From positions 1 through 35,010 of the IMG/VR virus record IMGVR_UViG_3300032268_001377: a DNA stretch of 35,010 bases, one strand, 5' to 3'. The position numbers were made by a program, and so were the translations under genes. Position 1 is the first letter of the stretch. Every line of letters begins with the position of its first letter. The DNA comes from a virus. Below, piece after piece: positions 589 to 4,280 of this stretch. A model generated the notes under the pieces. It searched no databases. It was given only the letters and a program-made list of their open reading frames with translations, and was not told the origin of the DNA.

Positions 589-1772
589 GGTACGGCTCCG
601 TGTGCAGCGGCATCGAAGCGGCCTCCGTCGCGTGGGAGTCGCTCGGTTGGTCGCCTGTGTGGTTCGCCGAACTCGCGGCGTGGCCCTCGAAGTTTCTCGC
701 TCAACGCTTCCCTTCGGTACCCAACCATGGCTCTCTCGTCGGACTCGCAGGTCGACTTGCTGGAGATGATTGCCGCATCGACGTCCTCGTCGGAGGCACC
801 CCGTGCCAGGCCTTCTCTGTCTCAGCGCTGCGAGGCGGACTCACTGACGAGCGCGGCAACCTCACGCTCGAGTTTGCGCGACTGGCTGCGGCGCTTCGCC
901 CTCGGTGGCTCGTCTGGGAAAACGTTCCCGGAGTTCTGTCCGACAGCACCAACGCCTTTGGGTGCCTTCTCGGGGCCCTTTCAGAACTCGGGTATGGCCT
1001 CGCATGGCGAGTGCTGGACGCTCAGTTCTTCGGAGTGGCCCAGCGACGCGAGCGTGTCTTCCTTGTCGGACATCTTGGAGCCGCTGCCGCTGCCGGAGCG
1101 GTACTTTTTGAGCCCGAGGGCGTGCGCCGGAATCCTCCGACGCGCGGAGAAGCGCGGGAAGACGTTGCCGGTGCGCTTGGCATTGGCGCTGGCGGCCGTC
1201 GCCGCGATCTTGACGGACAAGGCGCTTACATCCCCGAAATCAGCAAGTGCCTCACGACGAGCGCGAGGCGACTCGACTCCGAAACCGAAACCTTTATCAC
1301 CGCGTCGTTCGACGAAACGCAAGTGACTTCGCCCAAAAATCGGAGTTCGTGCGACCCGTCGACCGCTGCGCTCGTGAAGTCCGGCCGACCGCCCGCCATC
1401 GCCTTCAACGCGCGACAAGACCCCGTGCCCTCCGAGCACGTCGCAGGCTCGCTCGACACGGACGGGACGACGCAGGCCGTCTGTGTGACCGGCGAGGTGA
1501 CGCACGCGCTGCGCAGCGTCGGTGCCGACGCCAGTGAGGACGGCACGGGGCGCGGCACACCCATCACGACAGCCACGGCAACGCGCGTCCGGCGCCTCAC
1601 GCCGCGCGAGTGCGAGCGACTCCAGGGATTCCCGGACGACTGGACGGCCATCGACGGAGCGAAGGACACGCCGCGCTACGCAGCGCTGGGAAACTCGATG
1701 GCCGTGCCGGCAATGCGATGGATCGGCCGCCGAATTGAACTTGTCGACGGGATTCTCCGAGGTGCCGCGTGA
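585..1772 (+). CDS. DNA (cytosine-5-)-methyltransferase
   Basis: A 395-residue C5-cytosine DNA methyltransferase, which transfers a methyl group from S-adenosylmethionine to C5 of cytosine in a short target. The ordered motifs are visible: motif I SVCSGIEAASVAW near residues 5-17; motif IV GGTPCQAFSV at 70-79 with catalytic Cys74; motif VI WENVPG at 111-116; motif VIII QRRERVFLVG at 153-162. After a variable target-recognition region come motif IX LTPRECERLQGFPDDW and motif X GNSMAVP near the C-terminus. ATG 585 is used because it overlaps the upstream stop and places motif I at the N-terminus. No cognate restriction enzyme is adjacent, so protection of phage DNA from host restriction is the likely role. 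Part of the gene (727-1326) is also read in the +1 frame as another protein. Confidence 0.93.
   Translation: MRYGSVCSGIEAASVAWESLGWSPVWFAELAAWPSKFLAQRFPSVPNHGSLVGLAGRLAGDDCRIDVLVGGTPCQAFSVSALRGGLTDERGNLTLEFARLAAALRPRWLVWENVPGVLSDSTNAFGCLLGALSELGYGLAWRVLDAQFFGVAQRRERVFLVGHLGAAAAAGAVLFEPEGVRRNPPTRGEAREDVAGALGIGAGGRRRDLDGQGAYIPEISKCLTTSARRLDSETETFITASFDETQVTSPKNRSSCDPSTAALVKSGRPPAIAFNARQDPVPSEHVAGSLDTDGTTQAVCVTGEVTHALRSVGADASEDGTGRGTPITTATATRVRRLTPRECERLQGFPDDWTAIDGAKDTPRYAALGNSMAVPAMRWIGRRIELVDGILRGAA
727..1326 (+). CDS. Overlapping-frame phage protein inside the cytosine methyltransferase gene
   Basis: A 199-residue open frame lying wholly inside the methyltransferase gene, shifted +1 relative to it. 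It is listed because its sequence matches a recurring family of unnamed phage proteins that I recognise from memory: a serine-rich N-terminus, then SSGKTFPEF, a segment like SGMASHGECWTLSSSEWPSD, SVSSLSDIL, and the signature RYFLSPRACAGILRRAEKRG followed by KTLP. The same DNA in the methyltransferase frame encodes the region after motif VIII (LFEPEGVRRNPPTRGEAR), which is also typical of phage methyltransferases. Both frames therefore appear to be selected. The start is uncertain: ATG 727 has no clear Shine-Dalgarno, and later starts are possible. The family's function is unknown. The basic RRAEKRGK helix suggests nucleic-acid or partner binding, but this is speculation. Confidence 0.72.
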   Translation: MALSSDSQVDLLEMIAASTSSSEAPRARPSLSQRCEADSLTSAATSRSSLRDWLRRFALGGSSGKTFPEFCPTAPTPLGAFSGPFQNSGMASHGECWTLSSSEWPSDASVSSLSDILEPLPLPERYFLSPRACAGILRRAEKRGKTLPVRLALALAAVAAILTDKALTSPKSASASRRARGDSTPKPKPLSPRRSTKRK

Positions 1773-2752: not shown

Positions 2753-3516
2753 GTCGCATCGCGCAACTGGAGGCCGACATCGCAGCGCTGGGCCGCCCCA
2801 CCCTGTCGCTCGCGGGCTGGCGGGCCATCATCGAGACGGGGCAGCGGGCGAAGGCCTGGGACGCCGCGCACCCCGTCGAGGCCGCGCGTCACCGGGCGCT
2901 GGTGGCCGAGCTCGAGGCCGAGACGCGGCGGGCCGAGACACAGGAGGCCGAGCGACTGGCGGCCGAGCGTGTCCTGCGCACGTCGGCGGCGAAGCTTGAG
3001 CGCAGCGGCGTGGGGCAACGCGCCCTCGCGGCAGCGGCGGACGCGGAGGACACCGAGGCGCTCACCGCGGTGAAGCGCTGGCTCCAAGACACCTCGAAGA
3101 CGTGGCTGGTGCTGTGCGGGGCGAAGGGCGCCGGCAAGTCCGTCGCGGCGACGTGGGCCGTCCGGGAGGCCATCACCTCGGGCGCCACGGCGGCGTTCCG
3201 GCGCTCGTCCGAGTTGGCGAAGCTGTCCGGCTTCGATGCGGGGGCGGTGGAGTTGGAGACGCTGAAGCGCGTCTTCCTGCTCGTCCTCGACGACGTCGGG
3301 ACGGAGCAACTCAACGACTGGGCGCGGGCGCAGCTCCACGAACTCGTCGACCACCGGCACGAGGCCTACGGGCGAACCATCCTCACCAGCAACCTGCCGT
3401 GGCGCGGGCCGGGTGGGCTTGAGGCGCGACTCGGCGAGCGCATCGCCGACCGCGTGGCGCAGGCGGGGACGGTGGTGCAGGTGTCTGGGCCGTCGCGGCG
3501 AAGGGGGGCGGCATGA
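2749..3516 (+). CDS. DnaC/IstB-like helicase loader ATPase
   Basis: A 255-residue AAA+ ATPase of the DnaC type, expected to load the replicative helicase at the phage origin. Walker A is GAKGAGKS (residues 124-131), Walker B is FLLVLDDVG (176-184), the sensor-1 strand is RTILTSNLP (209-217), and RLGERIADRV (227-236) fits the conserved arginine region near the C-terminus of these loaders. Residues 45-90 are strongly charged and probably coiled coil, replacing the usual helicase-binding N-terminus. GTG 2749 overlaps the stop of the replication gene (GTGA); starting further upstream would add an unrelated-looking sequence. The O-like/loader order matches lambda O/P and similar phages. Only a general DnaC/IstB-like call is possible, with no closer assignment. 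Confidence 0.85.
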   Translation: MSRIAQLEADIAALGRPTLSLAGWRAIIETGQRAKAWDAAHPVEAARHRALVAELEAETRRAETQEAERLAAERVLRTSAAKLERSGVGQRALAAAADAEDTEALTAVKRWLQDTSKTWLVLCGAKGAGKSVAATWAVREAITSGATAAFRRSSELAKLSGFDAGAVELETLKRVFLLVLDDVGTEQLNDWARAQLHELVDHRHEAYGRTILTSNLPWRGPGGLEARLGERIADRVAQAGTVVQVSGPSRRRGAA

Positions 3517-4280
3517 GCGCGTGGCAGGTGATTCACGGCGACTGTCTAGAGGTGCTGCCGACGCTGGGGCAGGTCGACCACGTCATCACCGATCCGCCGT
3601 ACTCGGAGCGCACGCATGCGGGCGCAGCGGCAGCCCCAAGCCACCCTGTGATGCCGTGCGGTTCAAAGCGACGCGGAGCGCTCGGATTCGAGCATCTCAG
3701 TGCTGAAGTACTCAAGGCGACGGCATTGGCCCTCGGCGTCACCTGTAAACGCTGGTGTGTTGTGTTCAGTGATGTGGAGCAAGTCCACTCGTGGGCGGAG
3801 TCGCTCGCCGCAAACGGATTGGAGCACATCCGAGTCGGGTGGTGGGTGAAGCCGAACGGTTCGCCTCAGTTCACAGGAGATCGCCCCGGCTCAGCTGGAG
3901 AGGCTATCGAGATCGCGCACCGCAAGGGTCGCAAACGCTGGAATGGCGGCGGACGTCGAGCGCTTTTCACACACAACACCCCGGCACTGGAAAATTGCCG
4001 CCGTGAGTGGCTTCACACCACACAGAAGCCGCTGCCGCTGATGCTGGAGTTGGTCGAGCTCTTCACCGACCCCGGCGATCTCGTGCTCGACCCATTCTGC
4101 GGCTCCGGCACCACCGGCGTCGCATGCCTTCGCCTCGGGCGGCGCTTCATCGGCGTCGAGAAGGACGCCACCTACGCGGCCGTCGCACGCGAGCGACTGG
4201 AGGCCGAGGCGCGCGGACTGACGCTGCGTGACGCGCGTGCGGGGCAGACGTCCATCTTCGACGTGATGGGGGATCCATGA
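3513..4280 (+). CDS. DNA methyltransferase, N6-adenine or N4-cytosine (beta-class order)
   Basis: A 255-residue SAM-dependent amino-methyltransferase. Catalytic motif IV, DPPY, is at residues 27-30. The SAM-binding motif I, DPFCGSGTTG, is at 193-202, preceded by the HTTQKPLPLM segment (168-177) seen in this family and followed by the acidic strand end FIGVEKD. Motif IV before motif I is the beta-class order. DPPY favours N6-adenine over N4-cytosine but does not settle it. No partner endonuclease lies nearby, so it is an orphan enzyme, probably for evading host restriction or marking phage DNA. The central 3640-3980 stretch is less GC-rich than its neighbours, suggesting separate acquisition. 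ATG 3513 overlaps the upstream stop (ATGA). Confidence 0.9.
   Translation: MSAWQVIHGDCLEVLPTLGQVDHVITDPPYSERTHAGAAAAPSHPVMPCGSKRRGALGFEHLSAEVLKATALALGVTCKRWCVVFSDVEQVHSWAESLAANGLEHIRVGWWVKPNGSPQFTGDRPGSAGEAIEIAHRKGRKRWNGGGRRALFTHNTPALENCRREWLHTTQKPLPLMLELVELFTDPGDLVLDPFCGSGTTGVACLRLGRRFIGVEKDATYAAVARERLEAEARGLTLRDARAGQTSIFDVMGDP

Follow-up and report, generated by a model that had tools for sequence, protein, structure and literature searches.

The locus analysed here raises the question of whether a phage C5-cytosine DNA methyltransferase (MTase) gene carries a second protein in its +1 frame and, if so, what that protein does. The window, that is, the whole stretch of 35,010 bases from an IMG/VR virus record, is a tailed phage. 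Its terminase, portal, head-protease and major-head-protein genes lie right of the MTase locus, and genes for an exonuclease and an Erf-like annealing protein are on its minus strand. Its MTase gene is 69% GC, and the main frame has motifs I-X in one chain. An earlier note on this DNA had described a 199-residue stop-free frame in the +1 frame of that gene. The ORF, with an ATG start, is present, as are the peptides that had been named from the two frames (YFLSPRACAGILRRAEKRGK-TLP, GMASHGECWTLSSSEWPSDA and SVSSLSDIL in the +1 frame; QRRERVFLVG and LFEPEGVRRNPPTRGEAR in the main frame). There are three candidate +1 starts in the window, ATG 727, TTG 757 and ATG 766, and most homologs start at the ATG 766 column. 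Table 1 gives the features of the locus.

Table 1. Features of the MTase locus and its neighbours, in positions of the window.
Feature	Position	Strand	Match or basis	Remark
C5-cytosine DNA MTase, main frame, 395 aa	585..1772	+	Pfam PF00145 E=8.7e-50 (positions 2-322/324); PHROG 116 E=1e-85; TIGR00675 E=1.2e-47	best start ATG 585, stop 1772
Overprinted +1-frame ORF, 199 aa from ATG 727	727..1326	+	PHROG 16143 E=1.2e-5	
QVDLL, clamp-binding-like pentapeptide	748..762	+		+1 residues 8-12; only if start is 727
MTase stretch with strongly reduced synonymous variation	765..1215	+		equals conserved part of +1 ORF
GKTFP, shared GK[TM]SP element	916..930	+		+1 residues 64-68; G64 nearly invariant
Most conserved core of +1 protein	991..1170	+		+1 residues 89-148
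Predicted C-terminal helical hairpin (LSPRACAGILRRAEKRGK-TLP-VRLALALAAVAA...)	1114..1230	+	AlphaFold	+1 residues 130-168
DnaC-like helicase loader	2758-3516			shortly after MTase locus
Second DNA methyltransferase	3513-4280		PHROG 67 E=2.1e-48	after DnaC-like helicase loader

The length of the ORF in the window is by itself no evidence of a gene, because 30% of synonymous-codon shuffles of this GC-rich MTase still had no +1 stop between 727 and 1323. A 293-residue antisense ORF (minus strand, 981-1862) also crosses the MTase and is probably a by-product of high GC. Selection was assessed in 51 non-redundant MTases as codon identity at conserved residues, observed over expected. This ratio is ~1.1 before nt 720, 1.21 at 720-764 and 1.5-2.8 from 765 to ~1215; it is 1.6 at 1215-1259, a single sparsely covered interval, and 1.0-1.3 beyond 1259 except in two sparsely covered intervals of ~1.3 and 1.4. 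The +1 tail beyond ~1215 is without conservation. The +1 frame is open in 45 of the 51 genes, compared with 4.0 expected (sd 1.9) when codons are shuffled within each gene, and the identity of its core is 0.67 as opposed to 0.27 in the codon-shuffled null. In five separately sampled sets, the synonymous constraint inside and outside the overlap was 2.10/1.22, 1.97/1.23, 1.95/1.16, 2.13/1.35 and 1.82/1.18.

The codon phase of this constraint separates a coding sequence from a cis-acting one. At Leu and Arg codons, changes at main-frame position 3, which alter the +1 residue, occur at 0.33 inside versus 0.62 outside the overlap in window-like MTases and at 0.16 versus 0.50 in the Pseudomonas type, whereas synonymous changes at main-frame position 1, which is the third position of the +1 codon, are much less reduced (0.205 versus 0.266 and 0.082 versus 0.115, respectively). 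A constraint on coding would produce this pattern whereas a cis element would not, so that an RNA or DNA element of that kind is disfavoured. Comparative sequence data thus place purifying selection in the +1 frame, with the overlap in the same phase in every lineage examined, and the +1 ORF is, on the same data, almost certainly a real conserved protein-coding gene.

The homologs speak to the same point. The +1 ORF occurs in the same phase at ~375 loci, always under a phage-type MTase. Some 295 of these are viral or GenBank loci, and in bacterial genomes 79 of 80 loci have it; no standalone copy was found among the ~295 viral and GenBank and the 80 genome loci. At the 80th bacterial-genome locus (L314, 2768-4037), a stop interrupts the MTase frame while the +1 ORF is intact. 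Searching with the +1 product by tblastn yielded 261 phage records, with phages of Caulobacter, Mycobacterium, Vibrio and Streptococcus as well as cyanobacterial and P1-like phages, and a scan of viral contigs with the same query left 80 loci, each with the MTase in the -1 frame relative to the product. A single stop in the conserved +1 part was seen among the first 80 loci, in L038 (2920-3195), where the MTase frame is intact; one wrong-frame row (L083) was excluded from the +1 profiles. Because the first loci had been picked by the +1 product, the search was repeated with the MTase C-terminus alone (query 1530-1769), and the +1 ORF was present in 75 of the 79 new loci fetched in this way. 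Of the other four, one is a lone MTase C-terminal fragment (L096), one has its MTase interrupted by an HNH-containing insertion (L102), and in two the MTase is cut by a contig end (L152, L168). The Firmicutes-type, Pseudomonas-type and bacterial-genome sets agree with this result. In 12 genomes picked for holding one +1 ORF locus, there are 30 C5-MTase loci, and the ORF is found in 14/14 of the phage type and in none of the 16 other C5 MTases, so that bacterial-type C5 MTases are rejected as carriers. The overlap spans the MTase catalytic core (motifs IV-VIII) and is kept in phages of many bacterial phyla and in the prophages of many genomes.

Homolog searches in several collections and the synonymous-site test accordingly bear out the earlier note's proposal of a dual-coding locus whose second protein is conserved in many phages. 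Among the signs that the note had named as speaking against a gene are a lack of homologs outside the shadow frames of MTase genes and unreduced synonymous variation. The former is what we find, as no homolog lies outside such frames, but synonymous variation is strongly reduced.

Two readings in which the window encodes no separate second protein can be weighed on these data. One holds that there is no gene at all and that the frame is open owing to high GC and conserved MTase residues, or that an RNA or DNA element lowers synonymous variation. The chance openness of the frame in the window alone and the long antisense ORFs over the same DNA fit this reading, but the constraint tracks the +1 codon phase, the amino-acid sequence, start and ribosome-binding site of the +1 ORF are conserved, and none of the 51 aligned genes has a +2 frame free of stops across the overlap. 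Moreover, the frame is open in low-GC phages in which the chance of this is 0.3-2%; a GC artefact is rejected for the family on these grounds and on the conservation of homologs, and we regard the no-gene reading as barely credible and already largely refuted. The other reading is programmed frameshifting, which would give the MTase an alternative C-terminus; frame fusions of the MTase and the +1 ORF in a few loci (L235, L288) are in its favour. In the 51 aligned genes, however, the +1 start occupies a conserved column (ATG in 35, TTG in 14, GTG in 2) and is frequently preceded by AAGGAG or GGAG encoded within the MTase. The starts follow 4-mers of Shine-Dalgarno type at 19/22, 15/19 and 42/78 loci, where 3.6, 3.4 and 22.0 would be expected, the signal not being clear in the window itself. 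At many loci a +1-frame stop sits ~7 codons upstream of the +1 start, which removes the need for a frameshift from the MTase start. These stops, together with the conserved starts and the ribosome-binding sites, disfavour programmed frameshifting and make it very improbable.

What kind of protein, then, does the overprinted gene encode? Across the family, the +1 product is small (about 130-190 residues) and basic (pI ~10). AlphaFold predicts helices at residues 130-143 and 149-168 of the window product, with high confidence only in this C-terminal hairpin (pLDDT ~95 over residues 131-160), and the same hairpin is predicted in a second subfamily; the remainder of the chain is, by the same models, probably disordered. 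Most subfamilies share the elements GK[TM]SP, LNxSEWPND and LSxxLE together with the hairpin, which has the consensus KACxGILRRAExRGKxLPxxLxxAL with near-invariant A, G, I, L, R, A, R, G, L and P. Neither Pfam nor NCBIfam gave a significant match for the window +1 product, and comparisons with the PDB gave no sequence match and no meaningful Foldseek match. The best viral match was G1FGG9 of mycobacteriophage Thibault, which appears to be gp104, an annotated piece of the +1 ORF.

The phage protein family to which the earlier note had linked the +1 peptides does exist, as PHROG 16143 (139 positions), which matched 90 of 115 +1 proteins (best E=3.6e-14). Its label, 'DNA methyltransferase', names no function for the +1 protein, which by sequence is no methyltransferase; the PHROG was evidently built from a few annotated copies of the +1 ORF, and the name was likely mis-transferred. 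The GenBank phage records examined, those of P7 and reference P1 included, leave the +1 ORF unannotated with the one exception of Thibault gp104 ('hypothetical protein'), and a literature search that had most subscription papers outside its reach found no paper on it. This conserved phage protein family has gone unrecognised or received the wrong label owing to its location within another gene. In P1 dmt and P7 dam, whose sole annotation is that of a bifunctional DNA methyltransferase, the C5-MTase part has the +1 ORF (HMM E=2.9e-45 and 3.1e-46, respectively). The P1 copy (L411, 6729-7199, corresponding to about 66728-67198 of AF234172; P7 is L410) reads MQLTTNGL...KACAGILRRGEKRRKSLPPLLQMALQSVAKA, its N-terminus being without a good clamp motif. 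As P1 is a much-used laboratory phage, expression and function of the +1 ORF are directly testable.

The N-termini of many +1 proteins point to a possible target. Frequent forms are M-x-QLTFL, MQLTMF, MQLSIF, QMSLF, QMNIF and QLDLF, and the pattern Q[LMIV][SDTN][LMIF][FLW] lies near the N-terminus in 43 of 121 lineages (strict clusters) versus 0.88 expected. These pentapeptides resemble published sliding-clamp-binding motifs, QL[S/D]LF and more generally QxxLF (PMC12309361; PMC4549789), as in Hda (QLSLPL) and PolC (QLSLF), whereas the rest of the +1 protein is unrelated to such proteins and many members are without the motif. The enrichment indicates that the peptide is conserved and does not thereby establish clamp binding. 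The motif lies at ~MTase codon 60 in the window-like type and at ~codon 104 in the Pseudomonas type, and because its position differs between these two subfamilies, the same kind of N-terminus arises from different MTase sequence. In the window it is the weak QVDLL, aligned by eye with QITLF of a relative (L093), and requires the start at 727. P1 and P7 (QLTTN), several enteric and Vibrio phages and most Firmicutes members are without it; its absence from P1, P7 and most Firmicutes members leads us to reject clamp binding as a universal function. The motif may thus be, at best, one module of the protein, and clamp tethering in the lineages that bear it is a possibility falling just short of evenly balanced.

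We propose a model whereby one mRNA would yield the phage C5-MTase and a small basic protein translated in the +1 frame from its own start codon, usually with its own ribosome-binding site. The conserved C-terminal hairpin would be the working part of this protein and, in many lineages, the N-terminal sliding-clamp-type motif would tether it to the host replication clamp. By contacting the MTase, it would bring the enzyme to freshly copied DNA, or regulate it there, and so couple phage DNA methylation to replication. An MTase accessory of this kind is the likeliest role because the two proteins would share one message and have never been found apart. The strict co-occurrence of the +1 ORF with the phage-type MTase supports the link to the enzyme, and is partly expected because the ORFs overlap; the DnaC-like helicase loader in the window supports the link to replication, and the predicted disorder of most of the +1 chain counts against the model. 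Judged from sequence, the evidence favours a replication-linked or MTase-partner role a little more than the putative roles named in the earlier note, those of enzyme modulator, anti-restriction protein or target-site chaperone, and whether the +1 protein is a partner of the MTase and/or the replisome in a broad sense is evenly balanced in our judgement. The statement as a whole, a dual-coding gene with a replication-coupled MTase accessory, is put forward tentatively, as slightly less probable than its opposite. The full replication-coupled model is rather unlikely to hold in every part, and it is doubtful that the overprinted gene in the phage C5-MTases of many phyla encodes a product tethering the MTase to the bacterial sliding clamp. 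If it did, clamp tethering would amount to replication-coupled phage methylation, comparable in principle to that of eukaryotic PCNA-DNMT1.

Other roles for the +1 protein have to be set against this accessory model. In the C5 MTase M.EcoHK31I, the beta polypeptide is encoded in another frame within alpha. M.EcoHK31I and M.AquI are both two-polypeptide enzymes in which MTase motifs lacking from the first chain are provided by the second (PMC3404938), and with a C5 MTase and a second polypeptide they are the nearest enzymological precedent for the present locus. The +1 product might belong directly to the MTase, as a subunit or as a partner in its folding, and have no role in replication, its hairpin packing on the enzyme near motif VIII and the target-recognition domain (TRD) and tuning specificity or stability. 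That the +1 ORF is never found without a phage-type MTase is in keeping with such a subunit, as are the natural frame-split MTases of L052, L055, L056, L286, L324 and L351 (the last being the same gene as L391 of Pseudomonas abyssi), which approach the M.AquI/M.EcoHK31I arrangement through fusion of the +1 protein to their TRD-IX-X half; in L235 and L288 the fusion is instead to the MTase N-terminal half, and these split loci are either natural split enzymes or sequencing errors. However, apart from the few frame-split fusions, the +1 protein has no MTase motif or significant Pfam match, and membership among the two-polypeptide C5 MTases fails because the main frame here is a complete MTase. 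Moreover, the C5 MTases at the 16 other loci manage without a +1 protein, and the conserved clamp-like N-termini would be left unexplained, so that we consider this reading somewhat unlikely. Alternatively, the +1 protein could be an early anti-host effector that slows host replication or blocks a defence by sitting on the sliding clamp or on some other host factor, and merely shares its DNA with the MTase. Many phages encode small host-takeover proteins, and a small, basic, disordered protein with clamp-like motifs would fit among them, but the fixed pairing with one enzyme family over a very wide phage diversity, the retention in prophages of many genomes, where host inhibition would be costly, and the absence of the motif from P1 and most Firmicutes members render an effector improbable.

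Since the +1 ORF and the phage-type MTase nearly always go together, studies of phage DNA methylation, anti-restriction or MTase cloning may have included a second product unnoticed, and a genuine clamp-binding N-terminus would tie the methylation of phage DNA to its replication. In overprinted viral genes generally, an older gene encodes a further protein in a different frame (PMC8227390). The principle is the same here, with the difference that the shared stretch runs through an enzyme's catalytic core and has been retained in phages of many bacterial phyla, making this a very widely distributed natural example of one DNA stretch encoding two proteins, useful for studying how overprints persist. 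Finally, we note that HNH-endonuclease-bearing insertions lie inside the dual-coding stretch at three loci, L102 (1544-2192) and those of Thibault (L414) and Schatzie (L415) (1148-1765). The Schatzie record calls its insertion an intron with undetermined boundaries; splicing would need to restore two frames at once.
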